A stretch of DNA of 64,000 nt, taken from positions 1,785,501 through 1,849,500 of the forward strand of contig NZ_CP047602.1 of NCBI RefSeq assembly GCF_009905255.1, written 5' to 3'. The notes beneath the pieces were generated by a model. That model searched no databases. It saw only the letters and a program-made list of their open reading frames with translations, and was not told the DNA's origin. The stretch is from Thermoanaerobacterium aotearoense. GTDB lineage: Bacteria > Bacillota > Thermoanaerobacteria > Thermoanaerobacterales > Thermoanaerobacteraceae. Position numbers and translations under genes: made by a program. This document shows positions 588-16,882 of this stretch, one piece after another. The stretch's first letter is position 1; each line of letters starts with the position of its first letter.

Positions 588-2195
588 ATGTTGGAAAATA
601 GCATTAAGGTGTTTATAATAGATGATGAATATTTAGAAAGAAGTCTTTTGAAGCAATGCATAAACTGGGAATCGTTAGGAATGGAGATTGTGGGAGAAGC
701 CTCTAACGCAAATGAAGGCATAAAATTAATCGACGAATTAAAGCCAGATATTGTATTTACCGATATAAAAATGCCTGGAATAGACGGCATCGAATTTAGC
801 GAATTCATTTTAAAAAGACACCCATCCTTAATAATTATAGTTCTTACAGGCTACAATGACTTTAATTATGCCCAAAAATCTGTAAAATTGGGAATCTTTG
901 ATTTTCTGCTTAAACCTATTGACGAAAACGAAGTCTTAACAACAGCAAAAAAAGTGAAATCATACATTGAAGGAAAGAAAAAAGAAAAGAAAGAGCTTGA
1001 TGATCTAAAAAAGCAACTATATGAGAATCTGCCTTATCTAAAAGAGCGTTTTTTAAATGAGTTGATTACTAACAACTTGTCTGAAAATTCTATAACTGAA
1101 AAGCTTAATTTTTTCAAACTTAACTTTAAAAATGGAAATTTTCAAATTGCTGCGATAGAAATTGCTAATTCAACGGACATGGGTGAAGAATCTCGCTTGA
1201 TTCAAAATTTTAAAGTCAACAACTACGTCAAAAGCTATTTTAAAAAGCTAAAAAATATCATTGTGTTCTCTGACCAGATGAATAGAATCGTCATCTTAAG
1301 CAATGACGAAAAGATAGATTTATATAAAATTTGCATGCGCCTTAAAAACAAAATAAATAAAGAGCTTTATTGTACTTTAAATATCGGCATCGGAAATATA
1401 AAAGAAAATATCAGCGAAGTTCGAGCATCTTATATGGAGGCCGTCGACGCATTAAACTATCACATTGCAGTCGGGAACAACAATATAATACATTATAGGG
1501 ACGTACAGTTTAGAGAAAGCAAATCAGACAGTGACACAATGCATCTCTTAAATGAATTAAAATTTTATTTAAAGTCCGGATTAGAAGATGATGCGATAAA
1601 AACTGTAAAAGAAGTTTTTTCTTTGATAGATGTTAAAAGTGAAAATGCACTTAAGTTGATACACGTAAGTGCATTAAACATTATTTCCGTTTGCTTCTCG
1701 GTTTCTCTTGAATTAAAAGAAAATTTTGACGATGTATATTTATCTGAAATAAACACGTATAACAAGATAGTTAATATAGAAACGTTGCCTGAAATGATAG
1801 AGTTTTTATCCTCCATAGTAACAAACACAATAAAAGCTGTCAACAAAGAACAGATTAGCAATATAAATAATTTAATTGATAATGTTAAAAAATTTATAGA
1901 AGAAAATCTTGGTGACAGCAATTTGTCACTATCATTTGTAGCAAAGCATTTTTACTTAAACCCCAGCTATTTAAGCCGTACGTTTAAAAAGGAAACGGGC
2001 ATAAACTTCATAGAATACCTTACAAATAAGCGAATGGAAAAAGCAATAAGCCTTATTAAAGAGAAGAACATGAAATCATTTGAAATAGCTAATGTCGTAG
2101 GCATACAAGACCCAAATTACTTTTCATCATGTTTTAAAAAGTACACAGGCTTAAACGTAAGTGAATATAAAAAATTAATAAAAAATACAGTTTAA
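588..2195 (+). CDS. Response regulator, YesN/AraC type
   Basis: 535-residue DNA-binding response regulator. An N-terminal receiver domain (about residues 5-120) has the acidic pair IIDDE, the phospho-acceptor Asp in DIVFTDIKMPG and the Lys in LLKPID. A poorly conserved middle region (about 130-420) follows, and two AraC-type helix-turn-helix motifs lie at the C-terminus (about 435-535), including AKHFYLNPSYLSRTFKKE and the family signature near IANVVGIQDPNYFSSCFKK. I chose the ATG at 588 because AGGAGG lies 6 bases upstream; an in-frame ATG at 573 would overlap the kinase gene without its own site. It is the partner of the kinase ending at 586 and converges on the xylan operon. It is likely to activate hemicellulose transport or hydrolysis genes, but its target sites were not identified. 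Confidence 0.95.
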   Translation: MLENSIKVFIIDDEYLERSLLKQCINWESLGMEIVGEASNANEGIKLIDELKPDIVFTDIKMPGIDGIEFSEFILKRHPSLIIIVLTGYNDFNYAQKSVKLGIFDFLLKPIDENEVLTTAKKVKSYIEGKKKEKKELDDLKKQLYENLPYLKERFLNELITNNLSENSITEKLNFFKLNFKNGNFQIAAIEIANSTDMGEESRLIQNFKVNNYVKSYFKKLKNIIVFSDQMNRIVILSNDEKIDLYKICMRLKNKINKELYCTLNIGIGNIKENISEVRASYMEAVDALNYHIAVGNNNIIHYRDVQFRESKSDSDTMHLLNELKFYLKSGLEDDAIKTVKEVFSLIDVKSENALKLIHVSALNIISVCFSVSLELKENFDDVYLSEINTYNKIVNIETLPEMIEFLSSIVTNTIKAVNKEQISNINNLIDNVKKFIEENLGDSNLSLSFVAKHFYLNPSYLSRTFKKETGINFIEYLTNKRMEKAISLIKEKNMKSFEIANVVGIQDPNYFSSCFKKYTGLNVSEYKKLIKNTV

Positions 2196-2218
2196 GGAGA
2201 TGCTTAAAGCATCTCCTT
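2194..2218. terminator. Compact terminator between convergent genes
   Basis: A perfect 12-bp inverted repeat (AAGGAGATGCTT, then its complement after one base) spans the stop codons of both convergent genes. The minus-strand side is followed within a few bases by a T-rich stretch. It probably ends both the response regulator transcript and the xylan operon. Confidence 0.7.
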
Positions 2219-3179
2219 ATGAATTTAGCTCCAGCATAAACTGCATCGCTAAATCTCCAAATCCTCTCATAGGTTCATGTCCATAATCAGGATACACTTT
2301 TATATCTTTTTTTGACTGTATGTTGTTGTAGGCTGCAAAAACAGTTGATGGCGGACATACTTGGTCCATAAGCCCAACGCACATTAAGACATCGCCTTTT
2401 ATCCTTTTCGCAAGGTTTTTAACGTCTATATATCCAAGCTTTGTAAATACCTCATTCTCCCTTTCATGCCTTGGGTCAAAAAGCCTGAAATAGTCCGTAA
2501 TCTCTTGATAGGCGTTTTTTGCAAGGTCTAAGTCCCAAACTCTCTTGTAGTCAGATAAAAAAGGATATTCAGATACTACTTTGCGTACCCTTGGCTCCAA
2601 TGCAGCACACGCCAACGACAGCCCTCCGCCTTGAGAAGGTCCCATGACTCCCACTCTATCTTCATCAACTTCTGGCATGTTCATAACTATTCCAGCCAAT
2701 TGGGCAGTGTCTAAGAAAATATGCCTGAAAAGCATATTATCAGCATCATCGTCTAGCCCTCTTATAATATGCCCATTTAAAGTATTCCCAGTTACACCGC
2801 CAACATCTTGAGACTGCCCTCCTTGACCTCTTACATCCATAGCCACAACGGTGAAGCCTGCCGCCACGTAATTTAATTTGTCGTTCCAGTCGCCTGAATT
2901 TGACGAATATCCATGAAATCTTATCAACGCTGGATGTTTCCCTTCTGTCTTAGGTTTTATATACTTTGCATGAATTCTGGCACCACGAACACCTGTAAAG
3001 TACAAGTCATAGCATTCTGCAAAGGATACTTGAAAGCTACTTTCTTTCAATTCAATTTTAGGATCAACTGACCTCATCTCATCTAAAGCCCTATTCCAAT
3101 ACTCATCGAAATCTTCAGGGCATGGATTTGTACCAGTGTATTCTCTAAGTTTTTGTAATGGCATGTCGAAAAGTCCCAT
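2217..3179 (-). CDS. axe1: Acetyl xylan esterase, carbohydrate esterase family 7
   Basis: 320-residue alpha/beta hydrolase of the CE7 acetyl xylan esterase/cephalosporin-C deacetylase family. It removes O-acetyl groups from xylo-oligosaccharides. The nucleophile elbow GPSQGGG places the catalytic Ser near residue 182; Asp near 272 (GLMDQVCPP) and His near 301 (YGHEP) complete the triad. The family RGQGG motif is present near 117. There is no signal peptide, so the enzyme is probably cytoplasmic and acts on imported acetylated oligomers. It is the last gene of the xylan operon, 21 bases after the GH39 xylosidase stop, with a GGAGGG ribosome site. Length is typical for CE7. From memory the sequence is almost the same as Thermoanaerobacterium Axe1. 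Confidence 0.96.
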   Translation of the reverse strand: MGLFDMPLQKLREYTGTNPCPEDFDEYWNRALDEMRSVDPKIELKESSFQVSFAECYDLYFTGVRGARIHAKYIKPKTEGKHPALIRFHGYSSNSGDWNDKLNYVAAGFTVVAMDVRGQGGQSQDVGGVTGNTLNGHIIRGLDDDADNMLFRHIFLDTAQLAGIVMNMPEVDEDRVGVMGPSQGGGLSLACAALEPRVRKVVSEYPFLSDYKRVWDLDLAKNAYQEITDYFRLFDPRHERENEVFTKLGYIDVKNLAKRIKGDVLMCVGLMDQVCPPSTVFAAYNNIQSKKDIKVYPDYGHEPMRGFGDLAMQFMLELNS

Positions 3180-3200: not shown

Positions 3201-6763
<3,563 letters not shown>

Positions 6764-6789: not shown

Positions 6790-7860
6790 TCATTCAACCT
6801 TTATGGCATTTGTTTGAGCTTCCAGTGCCAGCTCTATTGCTTTAAAAATGTGCTCCTGAGTCATGGCATTTTCTGTCCTGTTTAATGAGTCCAGTATCAA
6901 GTCCCCAAAGAAAGGAAACCCTACCTTCCCTTTTACATCTATTAAAAATTCACCGTCTTTGTTTACCAAGTACACATGGTCTGGAGCATTTTCTCTGGCA
7001 ACATCAATGTACTTTCTTAGCTCTATGTAGCCTTCTGTGCCCAATATAAACAGCCTTCCATCGCCCCATGTGCCAAGTCCATCAGGCGTAAACCAATCAA
7101 GCCTGAAATATCCTGTGGCTCCATTGTCTCCAATTAGCGTCACATCGCCGAAGTCTTCAAATGTGGGATATTGCTTGTGATTGTAATTTGCTACTTTTGC
7201 TGATTGGACTTTTGCGTCTTTTGCACCTGTATAATACAAAAACTGCTCTATCTGGTGGCTTCCTATGTCGCACAGTATGCCTCCAAATTTGTCTTTTTCG
7301 TAAAACCAATCTGGCCTTCCTTTTCCTTCTCTGTGTGGTCCCATCCCTAATACTTGTATTACTCTGCCTATTGCTCCTTTTTCTATTAGCTGTCCAGCAT
7401 AAACTGATGCTTCGTTGTGAAGCCTCTCTCCATAGTACACAGCATACTTTCTACTTGTCTTTTTGACTTTTTCTTTTGCTTTCTCTAATTGCTGCCATGT
7501 CGTCATTGGAGGTTTATCTGCAAAGTAGTCTTTACCTGCATCCATTGCTTTTAAGCCTATGTCACATCTTTCTGACGGTATTGCTGCACTTGCTACTAAT
7601 CTTACTTCACTGTCCATGAGTATTTCATCTTCACCTTTAGCTTTTTTTGCAGTCGGAAATGCTTTTATGAATCTTTCTACTTTTTCTGGATCTTTGTCAT
7701 ATGCCCACTTTACTTCAGCACCAGCTTCTATCAAGCCTTTTGTCATTCCATATATGTGCCCATGATCTAATCCAATGGCTGCAAATTTAAATTCTCCATC
7801 GCCACAGACTTTTTTAGCCCTGCTTTCAGGCATATAGTACATACCGTTTTCTTTGCTCAT
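6790..7860 (-). CDS. Gfo/Idh/MocA family NAD(P)-dependent dehydrogenase 1
   Basis: 356-residue oxidoreductase. It has a Rossmann N-terminus (about residues 22-140, beginning FAAIGLDHGHIYG rather than a clean GxGxxG), the family DKPPMTT motif in place of the usual EKP, and a C-terminal alpha/beta domain with CDIGSHQIEQFLYYTG, similar to the catalytic DxGxHxxD/E motif. Family members act on sugars or their derivatives with NAD(P). The ribosome site is AGAGGAGG. Its place between alpha-glucuronidase and xylosidase genes suggests a step in glucuronate, methylglucuronate or pentose metabolism, but the substrate cannot be read from sequence. It is only distantly similar to the next gene, so the two are not a recent duplication. 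Confidence 0.88.
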   Translation of the reverse strand: MSKENGMYYMPESRAKKVCGDGEFKFAAIGLDHGHIYGMTKGLIEAGAEVKWAYDKDPEKVERFIKAFPTAKKAKGEDEILMDSEVRLVASAAIPSERCDIGLKAMDAGKDYFADKPPMTTWQQLEKAKEKVKKTSRKYAVYYGERLHNEASVYAGQLIEKGAIGRVIQVLGMGPHREGKGRPDWFYEKDKFGGILCDIGSHQIEQFLYYTGAKDAKVQSAKVANYNHKQYPTFEDFGDVTLIGDNGATGYFRLDWFTPDGLGTWGDGRLFILGTEGYIELRKYIDVARENAPDHVYLVNKDGEFLIDVKGKVGFPFFGDLILDSLNRTENAMTQEHIFKAIELALEAQTNAIKVE

Positions 7861-7878
7861 TTGGCGTTCCTCCTCTTT

Positions 7879-9039
7879 TTACTTTATTTCCCTTCCAAAT
7901 GTTATGCGTTCGTCATTGAAATTTTCTACAAACGTTTTTTTCTCATAAAAATGAGGCACTCTTGCCATTATTCCATCTACTGTGTAGAATGGATCATCTT
8001 TTTCAAGTGGCAATTTGACAGCTTCTTTTGTCGTGGCTGCTTTGTATATGGCGGTTATAAGTTCTATTGCATTTCTTCCGTCGCTACCACTTACCAAAAT
8101 TTCATGGTTTGATTCTAATGCTTTTAATACATCGTCAAGCTGTGGGGTGTGCCCTGTGTATTTTGTCACATCAAGGCTGTCGTAGTATTCCTGTATTTTC
8201 CTCTCCAGTTCTTCATCTTCTCCAGATGGAAAACCATTGCTGGATGCTGTAGATGCATATACTTTCCATGGCACTGATATTCGGGCTTTTTTGCCTTGAA
8301 GCACAATTTGTTGCTCTTCTCCATGGTGAACTACCGAACTGGTTACTTGGGCTAAAGCGCCGCTTTTGTACTTTAATATGGCTATGGATATGTCTTCCAC
8401 TTCTGCATTGTCATGCGCTACATTACTCATTACAGCTTGCACTTCTTCAGGCATCCCCAAAAGCCATATAAGCATGTCTATATGGTGTATTGCATGATTT
8501 AATGTGCAACCACCGCCCTCTTTTTCCCATGTGCCTCTCCACCACAAATCGTAGTATGAATGACCTCTCCACCAAAATGAGTCAACTTGTGCATGTACTA
8601 TATCCCCCGCTAAACCTGATTCTACAACCTTCTTTAGCTTCATGAATTGCGTTCTGAAGCGGTTCTGCGCTATTACTGAAAGAAGCTTTTTGTTTTTCCT
8701 TGATGCCTCAATCATCCTGTCGCATTCTTCTAATGATGATGCCATCGGTTTTTCTACGATTACATGTTTCTTAGAATTTAAACTTTCCACTGCAATGTCT
8801 GCGTGTGTGTAAGGCGGCGTACATATGTCCACCAAATCGATATCTTCTCTTTCCAATATCTCTTTGTAATTGCTGTACAATATGGCATCATCTAAGCCAA
8901 ACCGCTTCTTTTTTTCATAAGCCTTGTCTTCGTAGATATCAGCTATAGCGACAATCTTGCACCTATCTTTAAACTCTAAAAAGCCTTGTATGTGAGCAGA
9001 TGAAATATTACCTGCCCCAATTATGGCTATATTAATCAT
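7879..9039 (-). CDS. Gfo/Idh/MocA family NAD(P)-dependent dehydrogenase 2
   Basis: 386-residue oxidoreductase with a clean nucleotide-binding motif (IAIIGAGNISSAH, residues 3-15), the EKPMASS loop near residue 92 and the catalytic-type motif NHAIHHIDMLIWLLG. I start it at 9039 (MINIAII) because GGAGGA lies 8 bases upstream; an in-frame start at 9063 adds eight unconserved residues. It is 18 bases upstream of the first dehydrogenase gene and about 90 bases after the alpha-glucuronidase, in the same operon. The cofactor is probably NAD(H) or NADP(H). The substrate is unknown; glucuronate-derived or methylated sugar acids are reasonable guesses from context. Confidence 0.9.
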   Translation of the reverse strand: MINIAIIGAGNISSAHIQGFLEFKDRCKIVAIADIYEDKAYEKKKRFGLDDAILYSNYKEILEREDIDLVDICTPPYTHADIAVESLNSKKHVIVEKPMASSLEECDRMIEASRKNKKLLSVIAQNRFRTQFMKLKKVVESGLAGDIVHAQVDSFWWRGHSYYDLWWRGTWEKEGGGCTLNHAIHHIDMLIWLLGMPEEVQAVMSNVAHDNAEVEDISIAILKYKSGALAQVTSSVVHHGEEQQIVLQGKKARISVPWKVYASTASSNGFPSGEDEELERKIQEYYDSLDVTKYTGHTPQLDDVLKALESNHEILVSGSDGRNAIELITAIYKAATTKEAVKLPLEKDDPFYTVDGIMARVPHFYEKKTFVENFNDERITFGREIK

Positions 9040-9128
9040 AATAAACTTCCTCCAATCAATCAACTAAGTTATTAATCTAAATTTTTCGATTTTTACTGTA
9101 TTTCTCTCCCAAGCTTCGTCTAAGTCGG

Positions 9129-11198
9129 TTATTCATAAATTTTCCTTCCATGTTCATCTTTTATGCCAGTCTTCCTGTAAAAATAAGTGTTTACAACATC
9201 TCTCCACTCTTTAGCATCAACTACTTGTATGTCAAATCTTTCTAACACAGCCTCATAAATCTCATCGCTTATTTTTCCTTTCAACGTAATCCAAGCATCC
9301 CTCATTTTTTCTGCTCGCTCTACACCTTCAAAATGAGTGTCGTATATGTGTTGTATGACCGTCTTACCTGATTTTAACTTGTGGCTGTACGGTACATGGT
9401 GGAAAAATAGCAAAAGTTCATCAGGACATGTATCTATATTTTCGTACATCTTTGCAACAGGCTCTTTATACTGTGCTGTGTAACCTGTGCCTGTTGCTAC
9501 AGTCCTATCGACGCCTATGCCCTTAAAATCTGCGTAGTGATACGTACCCCAATGAGAATACTCATATCCATCTACATTAGGGCCATAATGATGGCCTGGG
9601 TTTACCATCCACCCTATCCCAAGAGGGCTTGTGTACTCCTCATATATTTCTCTCGATTCCAAAAGCATCGGTACGACTGTATCCAAAACATCTTTATCAC
9701 ATCCAAATGTAAGCCTCACCCATTCTTCAGCTATCTCCCTCGATGAAAGGTCCGGATTCCATGCAAGCCTTCCAAAGCCATAAAGATTTGATTGTGCAAG
9801 TGGATGTCCTGTCCAACACTCACTGTCTCCTACATTGGCCACAGCCACAATCCCACCATATCTTGCTCCAAACAAGCTGCCATTTACAACTTTTTTCACA
9901 AACGAGCCTTCTCCTTTTGCAAATGTATCAAAGTCTAAAGCTTCCTTCCAAAGCGGCACAAGGTAACATAAGTGTTTCTGCTGTCCTGTATACTCTTGAG
10001 TAATCTGGAACTCCATAAAAACATTTGTCTTTTCCATGGCGCCAAATAGTGGTGTGATTGGTTCTCTGATCTGGAAATCCATCGGTCCATTTTTAACTTG
10101 CAAGACGACGTTATCTAAGAATTTTCCATCTAACGGTTTGAAATTATCATAAGCCGCTTTTGCCCTATCTGTAGATCGGTCTCTCCAGTCAACCATGCAA
10201 TTGTATACAAATGTTCTCCAAATGACAATACCTCCATATGGTTTTAATGCCTCAGACAACATATTCGCACCATCGGCATGATTGCGCCCATACGTGAATG
10301 GTCCAGGTCTAAACTCTGAATCTGCTTTCACTAAAAAGCCGCCAAAGTCAGGAATGTAACTGTATATTTTCGATGCTGCATCTTTCCACCACTTCTTAAC
10401 TCCATCGTCAAGTGGATCTGCAGTAGACAAGCCACCTATCTCAACAGGTGATGCAAAATTTATGCTTAAGTACGTCTTTATTCCATAATTCCTAAATACA
10501 TCTGCTATCTTCGCCACATCAGGTAAAAATTCATCTGTAATAAGCTTAGTTTCTTGCTGATGAACATTGACATTATTTATTACGACTCCATTTACTGCAA
10601 TGGATGCAAGCAGCCTTGCATAATCTTTTATCCTGGAAAAGTCTTGGACTATGCGATTATCTCTAAAGAAAATAGATTTTCCCGCATATCCCCTTTCAAT
10701 ATTGCCATCCATATTATCCCAATGATTTAATATCCTAAAATCATTTTGAGGATTTTCAATGCACAATGTATCTTCCAGATTTTTACCGCCAAACACAGAT
10801 CTTATAAGGTGAAAAACACCGTATAAAACGCCCTTTTCGCTTCCGCCAATTATGGACAATACATTTTTACCATTTCTTTTTAATATCTTTAATGCAAATC
10901 CTTCACTTTTAAGTTCATCTTCTAAGTCAACATATAATCCTTCTGATTCAAAATCATCAAGCGTGCCTATAAAAATGCAATCAGATTCTATCATGTGCCT
11001 TAACACTTTTGCATCATCTACAAGCTTTGATAAAGCTTTTTTAAGCTCGTCGACAGCATTATTTATAATCGGATTATCTTTTTTAACGACAATATACTTA
11101 AAATAATCCTTATATTCATCAAGTACTTTTTCATCACAAATTTCATATCTAAGCCAGCAGTCGTACATACTGCCAGCAAATTTCCTATCGCTAATCAT
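9129..11198 (-). CDS. aguA: Alpha-glucuronidase, glycoside hydrolase family 67
   Basis: 689-residue GH67 enzyme that removes (4-O-methyl-)glucuronic acid from the non-reducing terminal xylose of aldouronates. Signature stretches include [32 protein letters not shown] (containing the expected general acid Glu), [14 protein letters not shown] (an Asp and Glu of the catalytic base pair lie here) and [17 protein letters not shown] chose the start at 11198 because GGAGAG lies 7 bases upstream and the length then matches characterised GH67 proteins (about 680); 11243 is an alternative. No signal peptide, so substrates must be imported, consistent with the adjacent ABC transporter. It is separated from the binding-protein gene by a hairpin. 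Confidence 0.97.
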
Positions 11199-11277
11199 AA
11201 TATCACTCTCCACAAGTCCATTATAATAATATGATACCATCATTTTGAACTCTTAAGTAAATTTACCTCACTAACAT

Positions 11278-11331: not shown

Positions 11332-12999
11332 TTATTTGTTTTTGCTGCTTTTATATACATCATTCGTAAGTTTGACTAATTGATCTACGCCTTTAGCATT
11401 AACTTGTTGTACATAGCTATCCCAGTCTTTGTCTATAGATGCAACACCTGTTATGAATTTCAACATCATCTGTTCTACATAGTCAGAAATTGGCTGGCTA
11501 AGCATATTAGCTTGCTCTCTCTGGCTTTCAGTAAACGGCACAGGCGGTGCAACTGGTAACAGCTTTCTTTGAGTATTAACTTGGTTTTCAAAATTTGCTA
11601 CTTCTGGAGTCATCATCGATTCAGCAAGATCTTTTGGACCACCATACAGCAAGCAGAAGACACCACCAGAGAAACCATAATCTTTCTGCAAGTTCTTTGT
11701 GCCGCTTGGGTTCAAGTTCATGTAGTTTACGTCAGGCATAAGCTGGAACTTACCATTGACTTTCTGATACGTTACGCCTTCAACACCCCACTTTGTAAGG
11801 GTCTCACCTGCTTCGCTGTACCACAACCAGTCTACAAACTTAAGAAGTTGTGGGAAGTTTGGATCGTCTTTTGCTTTAGCCGAGATCATTATACCGTTTT
11901 CAAGACGATTGCCTGCAATAACGCCACCTTTTGGTCCTGCCAATGGTAAAATCTGCGTCACTTTAAAGTTACCTTTTCCTAATGTCTGATTCATCTGATT
12001 GATCATATTCTGAATTTCCTGCGTATTTGTCATGATGACGAATGACTTGCCTGTTACAAATTTCTGTACTGCTTGGTCGTCTGTCTGTGTGAAGCTGGCT
12101 GGATCAAGAAGTCCTTCTTTTACAAGTCTATTGAAGTATGTCAATGTATCTTTGTATTCTTGTGATGTTGGGTAGAATTCCCAATCATCCTTTGCGCTGT
12201 TGTACAAAACAGTTGAAGTTTGAGTCCAATCAAATAGTCCATCGCTTCCTGCAATCGGCACACCAAATGTCGGTAATGCTTCACCTATTAAAGCTTTGCC
12301 TTGCCATCTATCCGACAATGGATATGTGTTTGGATATATTTCTTTCAACTTTTTCAAAGCTGATTCCAATTCATCCCATGTATTTGGAATCGGTATATTA
12401 TTTTTCTCAAAAATATCTTGTCTTATTGCCAGCGAATATTGCATTGTATAAGTTTGATGCAACATTGGCAAAACGTAGAACTTTCCATCAGCTTGCTTTA
12501 ATGAATTGATGTCATTTTGAAGTCCCCACTCTTTTACTTCTCTTGAGAAATTAGGCATTTGATTTATATAGTCGCTTATTGGCAGTATTGCACCTGATGA
12601 AACAAATGGTACCTCTTGTCCTGGATAAGTCTTTGGTATTATCTCTGGTGCCTGGCCTGAGCTAATAAGAAGGCTTCTCTTTTGAGCATAATCACTCATT
12701 GGCACTATAGTAAGCTTTAGCGTGACATTAGTAGCATCTTTTATGGCTTTCCACAAAAGCCAATCTGATTTGTAAGGATAATTTGGATGGTCGCTATAAA
12801 GCATTGTAAATTCTAATGGCTTATCTGATTTAAAGTGTAGGTTTTGTGGATCGCTATTGTTTGTGGCAGTCTGAGTTTGTTTGCTTGTATTGTTGCTGCT
12901 GGACGAAGAATTTTTATTTCCACAGCCTGATAACAAAACACCTACAGCCAAAACTACAACCAGCAAAAACGACAGCAATCTTTTTGCATTTTTACTCAT
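11332..12999 (-). CDS. Extracellular sugar-binding lipoprotein of an ABC transporter
   Basis: 555-residue solute-binding protein of the large LipO/LplA type (family 1). A signal peptide with a hydrophobic stretch (residues 8-23) ends in the lipobox LLSGCG; the lipid-modified Cys is residue 26. A Ser/Asn/Thr-rich linker (about 29-50) follows, as is usual for Gram-positive lipoproteins. It should capture oligosaccharides outside the membrane for the two permeases upstream. Linkage to alpha-glucuronidase and xylosidases points to aldouronates or xylo-oligosaccharides. The ribosome site is GGAGGA. The 144-base gap upstream contains the leader of this gene but no clear separate promoter. Confidence 0.93.
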   Translation of the reverse strand: MSKNAKRLLSFLLVVVLAVGVLLSGCGNKNSSSSSNNTSKQTQTATNNSDPQNLHFKSDKPLEFTMLYSDHPNYPYKSDWLLWKAIKDATNVTLKLTIVPMSDYAQKRSLLISSGQAPEIIPKTYPGQEVPFVSSGAILPISDYINQMPNFSREVKEWGLQNDINSLKQADGKFYVLPMLHQTYTMQYSLAIRQDIFEKNNIPIPNTWDELESALKKLKEIYPNTYPLSDRWQGKALIGEALPTFGVPIAGSDGLFDWTQTSTVLYNSAKDDWEFYPTSQEYKDTLTYFNRLVKEGLLDPASFTQTDDQAVQKFVTGKSFVIMTNTQEIQNMINQMNQTLGKGNFKVTQILPLAGPKGGVIAGNRLENGIMISAKAKDDPNFPQLLKFVDWLWYSEAGETLTKWGVEGVTYQKVNGKFQLMPDVNYMNLNPSGTKNLQKDYGFSGGVFCLLYGGPKDLAESMMTPEVANFENQVNTQRKLLPVAPPVPFTESQREQANMLSQPISDYVEQMMLKFITGVASIDKDWDSYVQQVNAKGVDQLVKLTNDVYKSSKNK

Positions 13000-13143: not shown

Positions 13144-14016
13144 TTAACCTTTTAATGAACCAATCATGACACCTTGAACAAAGTACTTTTGTATAAATGG
13201 ATATACCATCATGATTGGTATCGAAGTCAATATGACACTGGCTGATTTTAAAGTCGCAGATATTTGAGCCAATTCACTTTGGTCAGATGTACTGCTAACC
13301 GCCGTCTGCTGTGCACCTGCTAAAATATTTCTCAAATAAAGTGCAACAGGAAATTTTGAGCTGTCATCAAGGTATATAAATGGACCAAACCAGTTGTTCC
13401 AAACGCCTACTGCGTAGAAAAGCGCCATAACGTACATTATAGGTTTTGAAAGCGGAAGGATTATCTTAAGAAGAATACCATATGTGCTCATTCCATCAAC
13501 TTCTGCAGCTTCCTCTAACTCCGCCGGTATGCCTTCGAAGAAAGTCTTCATAACCATTACGTTAAACGTGCTGACTGCACCTGGAAGCACAACACCCCAT
13601 ATGGTATTTCTCATGCCTAAAGCGTTTACTAAAAGGTAGGTCGGTATAAGTCCACCACTAAAAAACATAGTAAACACCACAAAGCCTAAAATGATTCCTC
13701 TACCTTTTAATCGCTTTTTAGACAACGGATACGCTAAAAGCGTCGACAAAAACAGTGAAACAAGTGTACCTACAACAGTATAAATAATCGTATTTTTATA
13801 GCTGGTCCAGAATTCTTTTTCTGCCAAAAGAACTTGATACGTCTTTAATGTAAAGCCCTTTGGATATAAAGACACCAAACCTGCATAAACGTATTTTTCG
13901 CCGCTTAAAGACACACTTAATAGATACCAGAAAGGATACAGTGTAACCAATATTACTAAAATCATTATTATTGTATTTACTACTTTAAATATTTTATATT
14001 GTTTCGACTCTTTCAT
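13144..14016 (-). CDS. Carbohydrate ABC transporter permease (LplC/AraQ type)
   Basis: 290-residue inner-membrane permease with six predicted membrane segments. The ATPase-coupling EAA loop reads EAAEVDGMSTYGILLKIILPLSKP (near residue 185). It pairs with the permease encoded just upstream (15-base gap) and with the binding protein downstream. The C-terminal pattern PFIQKYFVQGVMIGSLKG is typical of this subfamily. The substrate is inferred from context as xylan- or glucuronoxylan-derived oligosaccharides. No ATPase gene accompanies the set. Confidence 0.93.
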   Translation of the reverse strand: MKESKQYKIFKVVNTIIMILVILVTLYPFWYLLSVSLSGEKYVYAGLVSLYPKGFTLKTYQVLLAEKEFWTSYKNTIIYTVVGTLVSLFLSTLLAYPLSKKRLKGRGIILGFVVFTMFFSGGLIPTYLLVNALGMRNTIWGVVLPGAVSTFNVMVMKTFFEGIPAELEEAAEVDGMSTYGILLKIILPLSKPIMYVMALFYAVGVWNNWFGPFIYLDDSSKFPVALYLRNILAGAQQTAVSSTSDQSELAQISATLKSASVILTSIPIMMVYPFIQKYFVQGVMIGSLKG

Positions 14017-14031
14017 CTATCATCACTTCCC

Positions 14032-15000
14032 TTACCATAGACTGGATTCTGTGAATTTTCTTGACAAGTAGTTTGCAGTGTAAACCAAAGTAAGACCTAT
14101 CACTGCTTCAAACATGCCTATTGCTGCGGCATAGCTAAAGTTATTTGAAACAAGCCCCATTCTGTACAGATACGTCGATATGACATCTGCCGTAGAATAT
14201 GTCAATGGATTATAAAGTAGCAGTATCTTTTCAAATCCTACTGATAAAAGACCACCAATGTTTAATATCAAAAGTATCATGATCGTAGGCAATATACCTG
14301 GAATAGTCACATATATTGTTTGTTGCCATCTGCTGGCACCATCTATTATAGCCGCTTCGTACAATTCTGGATTGATATTTGTCAGCGCTGCAAGGTACAG
14401 TATAGCTCCCCAACCCATGCCTTGCCAAATACCTGAAACAATGTATATAGTCCTAAACCATTGAGGCTCTGCCAAAAAGTTGATAGTATGCCCAATGTAA
14501 TGTTTTACAATCATGTTAATAACGCCTGACGATGGATCAAGTATCTGCATTATCATATCTGCCACAACGACAGTCGATATGAAGTATGGCAAATATGACA
14601 CTGTTTGGGTAAATCTCTTAAACCACGTACTTTTGATCTCATTCAAAAGCAAGGCAAAAATTATCGGAAACGGAAAGCTTATTACCAAATACTCAACACT
14701 TAAAATTATCGTATTTCTAAATACTTGCCAAAACGATGGGTCATGTATAAACATGTCAAAGTACCTAAGTCCAACCCATTCCGTGCCATATACAGGTCCT
14801 CCAGGAACAAATCTCCTAAAAGCTATGATATTGCCGTACATAGGCACGTATCTAAATATGATGTAATATGCTATAGGTAGTATAAGCAGGCTATATAATT
14901 GCCAATCTTTTTTAATAGCTTTTAATGTTTTCTTAAAATCCCTATTTTTCCCTTGTTTAGCCTCCTTACCCCCACCTTTGTTAATCATTGCAGAATCCAT
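14032..15000 (-). CDS. Carbohydrate ABC transporter permease (LplB type)
   Basis: 322-residue permease. A basic cytoplasmic N-terminus (about residues 1-35) is followed by six predicted membrane helices and an EAA loop (EAAIIDGASRWQQTIYVTIPGI, near 215). The motif FLAEPQWFRTIYIVSGIWQGMGWG is characteristic of LplB-like proteins that work with large LipO-type binding proteins. The ribosome site AAGGAG lies 7 bases before the ATG. It forms the membrane channel with the next permease. Confidence 0.94.
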   Translation of the reverse strand: MDSAMINKGGGKEAKQGKNRDFKKTLKAIKKDWQLYSLLILPIAYYIIFRYVPMYGNIIAFRRFVPGGPVYGTEWVGLRYFDMFIHDPSFWQVFRNTIILSVEYLVISFPFPIIFALLLNEIKSTWFKRFTQTVSYLPYFISTVVVADMIMQILDPSSGVINMIVKHYIGHTINFLAEPQWFRTIYIVSGIWQGMGWGAILYLAALTNINPELYEAAIIDGASRWQQTIYVTIPGILPTIMILLILNIGGLLSVGFEKILLLYNPLTYSTADVISTYLYRMGLVSNNFSYAAAIGMFEAVIGLTLVYTANYLSRKFTESSLW

Positions 15001-15080: not shown

Positions 15081-16154
15081 TCATTTAGACATCTTATTTA
15101 TTGCTTCCCAAAGTCCATTCAAATACGTCACACCTAAAGCTCTGTCGTAAAGTCCATATCCCGGTCTCGCTTTCTCATTCCATATCATCCTACCATGATC
15201 TGGCCTTATATATCCTTCAAAACCTATATCATAATAAGCTTTCATGATTTCAAACATATCAAATGATCCTTCGCTTGATAAATGCGCTGATTCGTAAAAC
15301 TTTCTCTCTCCTATAAACTTTATATTCCTTACATGACCAAAATGGATTCTTCCCATCTTTCCAAAATGCCTTATAAGCTGCGGTATATTGTTTTCAGGAT
15401 TTGAGCCTAAAGAACCACTGCAAAGCGTCAATCCATTGTAAGGACTGTCTACAAGGTTTACAATCCTTTCAAGATTTTCTTTGCAAGTTACGATCCTTGG
15501 CAGTCCAAATAATGACCATGGCGGATCATCTGGATGTATAGCCATTTTCACATCGTATTCTTCGCATGTCGGTATTACATTTTCCAAGAAGTACTTTAAA
15601 TTTTCAAACAGTTTTTCCTCATCAACATCTTTGTACATATCAAGCAGCGTCTTCAATTCTTTAAGGCGGTCAAGTTCCCACCCTGGAAGTATAAAGCCAT
15701 TTGATCCATTGTCCATGTCTTCAATAAGCTTAAGCGGATCTTTCCCTTTTAACATATCATCATCGTATGACATTACATAAGATCCGTCAGGTAATTCCTC
15801 ATTTAGATTCGTACGTATCCAGTCGAAAACAGGCATGAAGTTGTAGCATACGACTTTTATCCCTAACTTGCCAAGGTTTTTTATAGTTTGTTTATAATTT
15901 TCAATGTATCTATCTCTCGTCGGAAGTCCCAATTTGATGTCTTCGTGAACATTTACACTCTCTATCACCTCCAGTTTAAGGCCGTATGACTCAACTTTTG
16001 TCTTTAATTCAAGTATTTTTTCAATTGGCCAAATTTCTCCTACCGGCACATCATACAAAGCCCCTACAATCCCATAGATACCCGGTATCTGGCGAATTTG
16101 CCAAAGTGTCACGCTGTCGTCTTTTTCGCCAAACCATCTGAAAGTCATCTTCAT
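15081..16154 (-). CDS. uxuA: Mannonate dehydratase
   Basis: 357-residue UxuA-family enzyme. It converts D-mannonate to 2-keto-3-deoxy-D-gluconate in glucuronate catabolism. The N-terminus MKMTFRWFGEKDDSVTLWQIRQIPG, the metal-site region CYNFMPVFDW, MAIHPDDPP and the C-terminal YIRPDHGRMIW match the family. Length is typical. It follows gntR by 41 bases with a GGGAG site. Glucuronate released by the GH67 enzyme would reach mannonate through isomerase (UxaC) and reductase (UxuB-type) steps not encoded under those names here; one of the two Gfo/Idh proteins could stand in, but this is speculation. Confidence 0.97.
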   Translation of the reverse strand: MKMTFRWFGEKDDSVTLWQIRQIPGIYGIVGALYDVPVGEIWPIEKILELKTKVESYGLKLEVIESVNVHEDIKLGLPTRDRYIENYKQTIKNLGKLGIKVVCYNFMPVFDWIRTNLNEELPDGSYVMSYDDDMLKGKDPLKLIEDMDNGSNGFILPGWELDRLKELKTLLDMYKDVDEEKLFENLKYFLENVIPTCEEYDVKMAIHPDDPPWSLFGLPRIVTCKENLERIVNLVDSPYNGLTLCSGSLGSNPENNIPQLIRHFGKMGRIHFGHVRNIKFIGERKFYESAHLSSEGSFDMFEIMKAYYDIGFEGYIRPDHGRMIWNEKARPGYGLYDRALGVTYLNGLWEAINKMSK

Positions 16155-16195: not shown

Positions 16196-16882
16196 TTATT
16201 GTTTAAAGTACTCTGGATATTTTTCTTTCAAAAGTACTACATCTCTGTCTATCATTGTCAAGTGTTCACTTATTATCTTTAAACCTTTTTCTTCATCTTT
16301 CTCCTTTATGGCGCTTACAATATTTTTGTGATCGCTTATGATAGCATCCCAATCAGTATCAGAAGACAATCTCAATGTCCTTATTCTGTCATAATCACCG
16401 CTTATAAACCTTATGGCCGACCATATTCTATCCATTTTACATCCTCTGTATATAAGCTCATGCATCTCGTTGTCTAAGTCGAATATGGTTATATAATTTT
16501 CTTTCATGACACAAAATTCTTGCTGGTTTATATTCGCTTCAAGCTGAAACAAGATGTCATCTGGAAACTCTCTACAAGCCTGTCTTACGATTTCTTTTTC
16601 AAGGTTTTCCCTCATGAATTTTGCTTCTTGAGCGCGCTTTATATCTATCAAAGAAACAAAGGTGCCTTTTTGTGGATAGATTTCAATCAGTTCTTCATTT
16701 GCCAGCCTCGTAAATGCTTCTCTAATAGGTGTCCTGCTGGTTTCAAATGCATTAGCTATATCATTCTCCGATATAACCTCTCCAGGTTTTAGATTGATGT
16801 CGATTATGTTCTTTCTAATCATCCTGTAGATGTAGTCTTTTTTAGACTCATACGTATTGTTTTCCAAAAGTTCTAATCCCAT
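16196..16882 (-). CDS. GntR-family regulator, FadR/UxuR-like
   Basis: 228-residue repressor-type regulator. An N-terminal winged helix (about residues 10-75) contains GEVISENDIANAFETSRTPIREAFTRL. A C-terminal FCD ligand domain follows, with the Asp/His metal-binding pattern (DLDNEMHELI, ISDHKNIVSAI, ISEHLTMI). It is the first gene of the uronate/xylan operon. FCD regulators next to uxuA normally respond to glucuronate, fructuronate or mannonate. Two candidate operators with a TATACTAGTATA-like core lie upstream and suggest autoregulation of the whole operon. Confidence 0.94.
   Translation of the reverse strand: MGLELLENNTYESKKDYIYRMIRKNIIDINLKPGEVISENDIANAFETSRTPIREAFTRLANEELIEIYPQKGTFVSLIDIKRAQEAKFMRENLEKEIVRQACREFPDDILFQLEANINQQEFCVMKENYITIFDLDNEMHELIYRGCKMDRIWSAIRFISGDYDRIRTLRLSSDTDWDAIISDHKNIVSAIKEKDEEKGLKIISEHLTMIDRDVVLLKEKYPEYFKQ

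Follow-up and report, generated by a model that had tools for sequence, protein, structure and literature searches.

A conserved pair of unlike Gfo/Idh/MocA oxidoreductases behind a GH67 α-glucuronidase gene, a candidate module for anaerobic demethylation of 4-O-methylglucuronate

Introduction

In hardwood xylan, a large share of the glucuronic acid carries a 4-O-methyl group. How might an anaerobe turn the methylated acid into D-glucuronate? The question is raised by a stretch of 64,000 nucleotides (the window, C1:1785501-1849500 of the complete 2.67 Mb genome) from Thermoanaerobacterium aotearoense. In it the gene for an α-glucuronidase of glycoside hydrolase family 67 (GH67), aguA, is followed by two genes for oxidoreductases of the Gfo/Idh/MocA superfamily, called B and A here in their order of transcription. 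Enterobacter asburiae JDR-1 reportedly releases methanol from methylglucuronoxylose, rhizopine is said to be demethylated by mocDEF, and a redox glycan pathway has reportedly come from the Withers laboratory.

From gene content and neighborhood we tentatively propose that B and A form a two-enzyme module that makes D-glucuronate from a modified form of the acid, most likely from 4-O-methyl-D-glucuronate released by GH67. We consider this role possible, somewhat short of probable.

Results

B and A are a conserved unit

B starts 89 bp past aguA, and 18 bp separate it from A. Both proteins belong to the Gfo/Idh/MocA superfamily by Pfam matches over the cut-offs (PF01408, PF22725, and PF02894 for B). 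With 23% identity over 198 amino acids (BLASTP) they are strongly different from each other. A preliminary description of this DNA had noted two unlike genes of the superfamily directly after aguA, as is borne out by the domain matches, the low mutual identity, and the recurring gene order. For B, the ATG at 9039 (386 amino acids) is preferred over the TTG at 9063 that opens the mechanical reading frame, as most relatives align from the ATG.

The two genes are part of a conserved run on the minus strand with gaps of at most 144 bp. It encodes a GntR/FCD regulator, UxuA, two ATP-binding cassette (ABC) permeases, a solute-binding lipoprotein, GH67, B, A, GH52, GH39, and an AXE1 esterase. Gene order is identical in four more genomes of the genus (L212-L215), five including the window, except for an extra 2.1 kb in L215 between the binding protein and one permease. 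The relatives of A at 92% identity are from Thermoanaerobacterium. A GH10 gene lies ahead of the GH67 gene in L216 and L217, which are contig fragments (L217 has further DNA before GH10), and in the sister species G017 (L203). The operon of the latter reads GntR-UxuB-UxuA-permeases-binding protein-GH10-GH67-B-A-GH52.

To find how widely the pair occurs, a pattern-based scan covered one genome per species over 84,980 species and yielded 292 relatives of A. The best 80 loci were kept, chosen solely by similarity to A. An ortholog of B (53-92% identity) is directly upstream of A in 32 of the 80; in L049 it is cut by the contig end. The matched B and A stretches are 7-219 bp apart in the 34 cases measured, including the window. 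Given this recurrence and the same order in the four other genomes of the genus, the pair is a conserved unit and no chance neighborhood. On a tree of A, the label "with B" needs 13 changes versus 29.5 when shuffled. The pairing is clustered on the tree but was repeatedly gained or lost, and a single origin of the B-paired A proteins was rejected.

The B-A unit spans Bacillota, Chloroflexota, and enterobacteria and is sometimes near uxaC, uxuB, or uxuA. Inside the fetched flanks, which differ in length, at least one of these uronate genes is present in six of the 32 loci with B (L047, L048, L049, L053, L056, and L113) versus one of the 48 others (L116). L056 codes for an AraC-type regulator, B, A, and UxaC in that order; the regulator clusters with an AraC-type protein of L094. 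With UxaC as the next gene, the B-A product is plausibly a UxaC substrate, and the unit should thus make glucuronate. A cluster in G097 (L194) encodes GH115, GH43, a sulfatase, B, A, a radical-SAM/SPASM protein, and UxuA, with GH115 ending 6 kb before B-A and UxuA two genes on. These links also bear on whether the pair serves a xylan sugar that is not a uronate (xylose, arabinose, or acetylated sugars) and owes its place in the operon to xylan alone. The neighbors in the genus of the window, in G034, and in L046 do include xylan enzymes. However, B-A accompanies uxaC, uxuA, or uxuB in lineages whose flanks showed no recognized xylan gene, and we regard such a role as highly unlikely.

Genomes with B usually encode GH67 or GH115

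One draw of 398 genomes from the phylum of the window was searched for A (E up to 1e-40), B (E up to 1e-70), GH67, and GH115. A was found in 19 genomes, B in 13, GH67 in 24, and GH115 in 14; GH67 or GH115 is encoded in 32, six of which have both. All 13 genomes with B also have A, adjacent in nine. GH67 is present in 11 of the 13 versus 24 of 398 overall, and GH67 or GH115 in 12 of the 13 versus 32 of 398; by genome, Fisher gives 2e-13. Counted by genus, five of seven B genera have GH67 compared with 11 of 266 (Fisher 9e-7). When the genus of the window (five genomes) and six genomes of family f26 with matches were removed post hoc, three of the four remaining B genomes had GH67 (p 1.5e-4). 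The co-occurrence does not come from one inherited operon, since six of the 11 genomes with both have B and GH67 either on separate contigs or at a distance of more than 300 kb.

We also searched 50 of the 80 locus genomes for GH67 and GH115, namely all 32 with B and 18 of the 48 without. Outside the enterobacteria, 19 of 24 B genomes encode one or the other. In the five that lack both (L047, L048, L049, L053, and L113), uxuA is a neighbor of B-A (at a distance of about 6 kb in L113), sometimes joined by uxuB, as expected for scavengers of the free acid. In total, GH67 or GH115 is found in 30 of 44 distinct B genomes (12 of 13 drawn and 19 of 32 reached through loci, with L045, which is G012, counted once). 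Judged by these gene sets, most organisms with B-A are xylan side-chain degraders or resemble scavengers with uronate genes or an importer.

Protein B is related to WlbA and a glucuronide 3-dehydrogenase

Residues G16, G18, E104-K105-P106, N189, and H193 are invariant in 40 B sequences. The closest solved proteins are 3q2i (152.6 bits), presumably another WlbA, and 3q2k (149.5 bits), which is WlbA with NADH and UDP-GlcNAcA, a uronate. The next matches score 111-113 bits and are 3ezy, DgpA (which we take to be a glucoside 3-dehydrogenase), DgpA1, and the P2B11 glucuronide-3-dehydrogenase (111 bits). A W-x-R..YY..WR[GA]-x-W stretch is common to B, 3q2i, 3q2k, and P2B11 and missing from DgpA, DgpA1, and 3ezy. 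B further shares the EKP and N..H residues with WlbA (3q2k) and P2B11 (8tdi), although its matches to the two are modest (150-153 and 111 bits). The structure model of B has a predicted local distance difference test score (pLDDT) of 83.9 and is poor exactly at residues 166-177.

In the form W-x-R-x(2,3)-YY-x(2,5)-W[RA], the motif is present in 40 of 40 B sequences and 41 of 41 sequences of G1, a partner of A described below, and in none of 92 A sequences. It also occurs in the Gfo proteins G2 and RP and in another Gfo protein from the same genome as the window. The motif was therefore rejected as a uronate signature; it identifies a clade and does not prove a substrate. The additional protein of the same genome (L015:5066-6094, at C1:51077) is encoded after a gene for 272 amino acids and before ABC-importer-like genes.

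Protein A retains the catalytic residues but has an odd nucleotide loop

The closest solved proteins to A are 2p2s from Erwinia/Pectobacterium (412 bits; 53% over 333 residues; Z 47.6) and 3u3x from Sinorhizobium meliloti (300 bits; 44% over 329 residues; Z 46.7). Both are putative oxidoreductases without an assigned function, and A belongs to their family. In the AlphaFold2 model of A (pLDDT 86.7), structures of the superfamily score Z 29.6-47.6 among the best 50 matches. After 2p2s and 3u3x, the next Gfo/Idh proteins reach at most Z 34.6; 1,5-anhydrofructose reductase, NAD-dependent sulfoquinovosidases, and levoglucosan dehydrogenase are bunched together among them. YjhC and the NAD-dependent glycosidases share the fold with A at 14-17% identity, with Z scores level with many other family members.

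K116, D198, and H202 are invariant in 92 A sequences, and A accordingly looks catalytically competent. The catalytic lysine and histidine are kept in both A and B. The preliminary description took the altered DKPP motif of A as support for unusual chemistry. This does not hold, as D115 and K116 are both invariant in 92 of 92 sequences, the usual form of the motif is DKAP, and a D in place of E is only a slight alteration. With K116 invariant, DKPP was rejected as a sign of odd chemistry. The odd feature of A is its nucleotide loop. In place of the classical GxGxxG it has GLDHGH (IGLDHGHIYG), about three residues shorter and missing the usual glycines. Membership of A in the superfamily is thus assigned from the fold, the domains, and K116, D198, and H202, not from this loop.

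Neither protein reached a cut-off among the NCBIfam equivalogs for levoglucosan dehydrogenase, inositol 2-dehydrogenase, UDP-GlcNAc 3-dehydrogenase, and the BT_2158/BT_2159 families. The best scores were 44.8 against 450 for A (UDP-GlcNAc 3-dehydrogenase) and 133.9 against 355 for B (inositol 2-dehydrogenase).

The canonical glucuronate route is encoded outside the window

The preliminary description was right that the window has uxuA and neither uxaC nor uxuB, and suggested that one of the two dehydrogenases replaces fructuronate reductase. Both kinds of gene are, however, encoded elsewhere in the genome. The sole UxaC match in the whole genome is C1:394670-396061, with 755.7 bits to PF02614 and 676.6 bits against an NCBIfam equivalog cut-off of 387. 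Two proteins of the Mannitol_dh (UxaB/UxuB) type are encoded at C1:403299 and C1:415859. The second is 62% identical to the protein encoded between GntR and UxuA in G017, which has both mannitol dehydrogenase domains. The 538-amino-acid UxuB-type protein is under the NCBIfam cut-off for fructuronate reductase (125 versus 603), and its name is drawn from its domain and from the closeness of 51-62% relatives to uxuA. A match to the KDPG/KDG-aldolase family is found at C1:299078. The genome thus seems to encode the steps downstream of glucuronate without need of A or B.

UxuB relatives are also close to UxuA and B-A in L047, L048, and L113 (about 7 kb from B-A in L113), and a Pfam search detected neither Mannitol_dh domain (PF01232 and PF08125) in A or B. 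Because the canonical genes are in the genome and UxuB shares the G017 operon with the pair, the chief argument for either protein as a substitute for fructuronate reductase falls away. The presence of uxuA without uxuB in the window operon speaks for substitution, but genome content and the sister operon led us to reject it, and it is very improbable. Canonical uxaC and uxuB in the same regulon had been named as evidence against a special role of the pair; both genes are present in the genome but sited at another locus.

Other partners of A and cleavage of glucuronides

The partner of other A genes is G1, closely related to P2B11 (the Kluyvera protein scores 348 bits); a gene for an AP_endonuc_2 TIM barrel and the further Gfo gene G2 are often there too. 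Enterobacterial clusters are of several kinds: LacI/G1/B/A/G2/GPH symporter in Kluyvera, B/A/G2/GPH in Rahnella and Buttiauxella, and G1/A/G2 in Pseudocitrobacter. A reading frame bearing the YY..WR motif is within 6 kb of A at 63 of the 80 loci; at the other 17 none was found. Among plasmids, 171 records have A-like genes, 129 of them from Rhizobium, and 13 of the best 15 are at 43-49% identity. In the two plasmid regions viewed, A adjoins Gfo genes near an ABC importer.

The partnership with G1 raises the main rival explanation, that B-A acts in a non-hydrolytic cleavage of glucuronides such as aldouronates or other plant glucuronides. C3 oxidation, β-elimination of the aglycone, hydration, and reduction by A would then give free (methyl)glucuronate. 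The kinship of G1 to the glucuronide-3-dehydrogenase and its frequent TIM-barrel neighbor are consistent with this. So are the second-best NCBIfam match of the enterobacterial GPH symporter, a glucuronide transporter, yet below the cut-off, and the Z of 32.8 between the A model and NAD-dependent sulfoquinovosidases, a value that many other family members also reach. The levoglucosan route likewise joins Gfo/Idh enzymes to separate elimination and hydration enzymes. However, relatives of the TIM-barrel proteins TIM2 and TIM5 are in none of the 32 fetched B locus flanks, a search that covered these two TIM-barrel families and no others. No lyase gene was recognized in the B-A units, including regulator/B/A/UxaC in L056, and the frequency of hydrolytic GH67 or GH115 α-glucuronidases among the distinct B genomes implies that the module accompanies them rather than replaces them. 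We consider this explanation rather unlikely.

Several gene neighborhoods of A and B-A were recorded as separate observations. In four Paenibacillus loci (L054, L059, L082, and L090), a lone A follows a methionyl-tRNA-synthetase-like gene, read by eye, and no motif-bearing partner is within 6 kb. G017 encodes two extra copies of A (90%; L202 and L204), and their neighbors code for RP, a zinc alcohol dehydrogenase, a flavoprotein resembling fumarate reductase, and a protein similar to dihydroorotate dehydrogenase. One copy has a GH106 rhamnosidase gene nearby; the other is followed by GH52-GH39-CE7. In G056 an iron-containing alcohol dehydrogenase gene (L196:10927-12270) is about 0.3 kb downstream of B-A, a single case that may be due to chance.

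Other features of the window operon

The genes around B and A are listed in Table 1. The mechanical reading frame of GH39 starts at a TTG and shares 94 bp with GH52; translation probably begins at an internal codon. Scans for promoters and terminators gave matches no more numerous than in shuffled sequences.

Table 1. Genes and other features of the operon containing B and A, with positions in the window.
Feature	Position	Strand	Basis
GntR/FCD regulator, at the beginning of the conserved stretch	16196..16882	-	Domain match, conserved order
Mannonate dehydratase UxuA	15081..16154	-	Pfam and NCBIfam matches
ABC permease	14032..15000	-	By eye; conserved order
ABC permease	13144..14016	-	By eye; conserved order
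Solute-binding lipoprotein of the ABC importer	11332..12999	-	Domain match; lipoprotein signal by eye
GH67 α-glucuronidase (aguA), all three GH67 domains	9129..11243	-	Domain matches
B, Gfo/Idh/MocA oxidoreductase, 386 amino acids from the ATG; motif common to WlbA and P2B11 glucuronide 3-dehydrogenase	7879..9039	-	Pfam, alignment
A, Gfo/Idh/MocA oxidoreductase, 356 amino acids, 2p2s/3u3x family; DKPP motif, non-classical nucleotide loop	6790..7860	-	Pfam, alignment, structure model
GH52 (β-xylosidase family), 26 bp past A	4721..6763	-	Domain match, conserved order
GH39	3201..4814	-	Domain match, conserved order
Acetyl xylan esterase (AXE1 family)	2217..3179	-	Domain match
Terminator-like hairpin, operon end	2193..2219	-	Consensus scan; hairpin number not above shuffles

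Discussion

In the demethylation reading that we favor, GH67 would free 4-O-methyl-D-glucuronate, B and A would convert it to D-glucuronate, and UxaC, UxuB, and UxuA would then lead to 2-keto-3-deoxygluconate (KDG). The methylated form is the proposed substrate because plain glucuronate needs no extra redox pair and the 4-O-methyl form is the common modified glucuronate met with GH67 or GH115. B would take a hydride from the uronate ring with NAD+, at C3 judging by its kinship with WlbA and P2B11. A, the unlike Gfo/Idh reductase, would give the hydride back, making the cycle redox-neutral and free of oxygen. Such a cycle is proposed on account of the two unlike dehydrogenases and the family precedents YjhC and LgdA/LgdC. 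That the pair acts on the methylated sugar acid had also been suggested in the preliminary description. The idea now has circumstantial support from the co-occurrence with GH67 and GH115, the linkage to uxaC, uxuA, and uxuB, and the kinship of B with WlbA.

Two chemical routes can be imagined. The C3 ketone might pass to a 3,4-enol ether, whose hydrolysis would give a C4 ketone and methanol, with A reducing C4. Two enzymes would be needed here because two different carbons change. Alternatively, a C2 ketone might allow β-elimination of methanol from C4, followed by re-hydration and reduction. The specific form, in which B-A is an oxygen-independent sugar O-demethylase of two Gfo/Idh enzymes, one oxidizing C3 and the other reducing C4 of 4-O-methylglucuronate with methanol lost between, and in which the two genes travel as a portable cassette, is somewhat unlikely.

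Several observations weigh against demethylation by B-A. The C3 position is assigned by kinship only, and a C3 ketone would not make the C4 methoxyl a β leaving group. A is sited away from B in four of the 13 drawn B genomes (G101, G139, G360, and G399), and one of them, G139, encodes neither GH67 nor GH115. The two α-glucuronidase families were also found in none of the eight enterobacterial B genomes searched. The five other B locus genomes without them are mostly metagenome assemblies (four at 1.6-2.2 Mb), so their absence there is unsure. Of the 24 drawn GH67 genomes, 11 encode neither A nor B, and seven of these belong to one genus. L208 (G409) resembles the window in its GH10-GH67-GH52-CE7 stretch but lacks B-A, which makes it a natural comparison for the contribution of the two genes. 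The pair is thus dispensable for GH67 use in some genomes. Nor does B stand out from A, which in the draw is itself tied to GH67 (13 of 19); among the locus genomes searched, GH67 or GH115 is present in 12 of 18 without B, almost the same frequency as in the non-enterobacterial ones with B (19 of 24). We do not claim that B marks GH67 genomes better than A; the draw leans that way (11 of 13 versus 13 of 19), while the 50 locus genomes show no separation. Finally, A has other partners (G1 and RP), it also occurs near a rhamnosidase gene, and in Paenibacillus it stands alone next to genes resembling that for methionyl-tRNA synthetase.

The presence of A in several sugar contexts also suits another explanation, that the pair interconverts or oxidizes a free uronate without demethylation, for example at C1 to an aldarate or by an epimerization in which one enzyme oxidizes and the other reduces, for redox balance or as a side route. 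The family is versatile enough for this, with members that oxidize many sugars at C1, C2, or C3, and a pair of dehydrogenases that differ in stereochemistry can bring about an epimerization. However, glucuronate is indicated as the product by UxuA in the operon and by UxaC or UxuB close to B-A in other genomes. We hold interconversion to be unlikely.

If demethylation by B-A is true, the cassette would open the chief side-chain acid of hardwood xylan to anaerobes and scavengers. A two-gene candidate accompanying GH67, GH115, and uronate genes makes the demethylation gap directly testable, and the answer would matter for bioprocessing with Thermoanaerobacterium.

Comparison with known systems

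A and B are members of a known superfamily, and neither the B-A module nor its proposed role was found described in the literature searched. The searches, with most subscription journals outside their coverage, returned no 4-O-methylglucuronate demethylase either, which is weak evidence of absence. The accessible parts of a transcriptomic study of Paenibacillus JDR-2 (PMC4765114) and of a termite spirochete paper (PMC13067680) contain nothing on demethylation. In the accessible part of a Geobacillus paper, the GH67 product, given as D-glucuronic acid, goes straight into kdgKA-uxaC-uxuAB, and no demethylase is named.

The sugar demethylation found described is the P450-based oxidative demethylation of 6-O-methyl-D-galactose (PMC10033563). 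Like the reaction proposed for B-A, it removes a methyl ether from a polysaccharide-derived sugar. Unlike B-A, it uses a monooxygenase and makes formaldehyde, and no P450 gene was recognized in the window operon. A monooxygenase route is of no use to strict anaerobes, and B-A is a candidate to fill this gap.

YjhC is proposed to carry out oxidation, elimination, hydration, and reduction within one protein (PMC7315737). YjhC and the NAD-dependent glycosidases resemble A and B in their Gfo/Idh fold, and their NAD-dependent, redox-neutral C-O cleavage is of the type proposed here. They differ from B-A in that a single enzyme performs the whole cycle, and the identity to A is low, as noted above.

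The levoglucosan pathway (LgdA/LgdB1/LgdB2/LgdC) has LgdA and LgdC bracketing two other enzymes (PMC7676230). Unlike B-A, it requires these two further elimination and hydration enzymes, and such genes were not recognized in the window operon. Like the module proposed here, it pairs one oxidizing with one reducing dehydrogenase, LgdC being annotated as Gfo/Idh/MocA, and the net result is hydrolysis of an ether bond.

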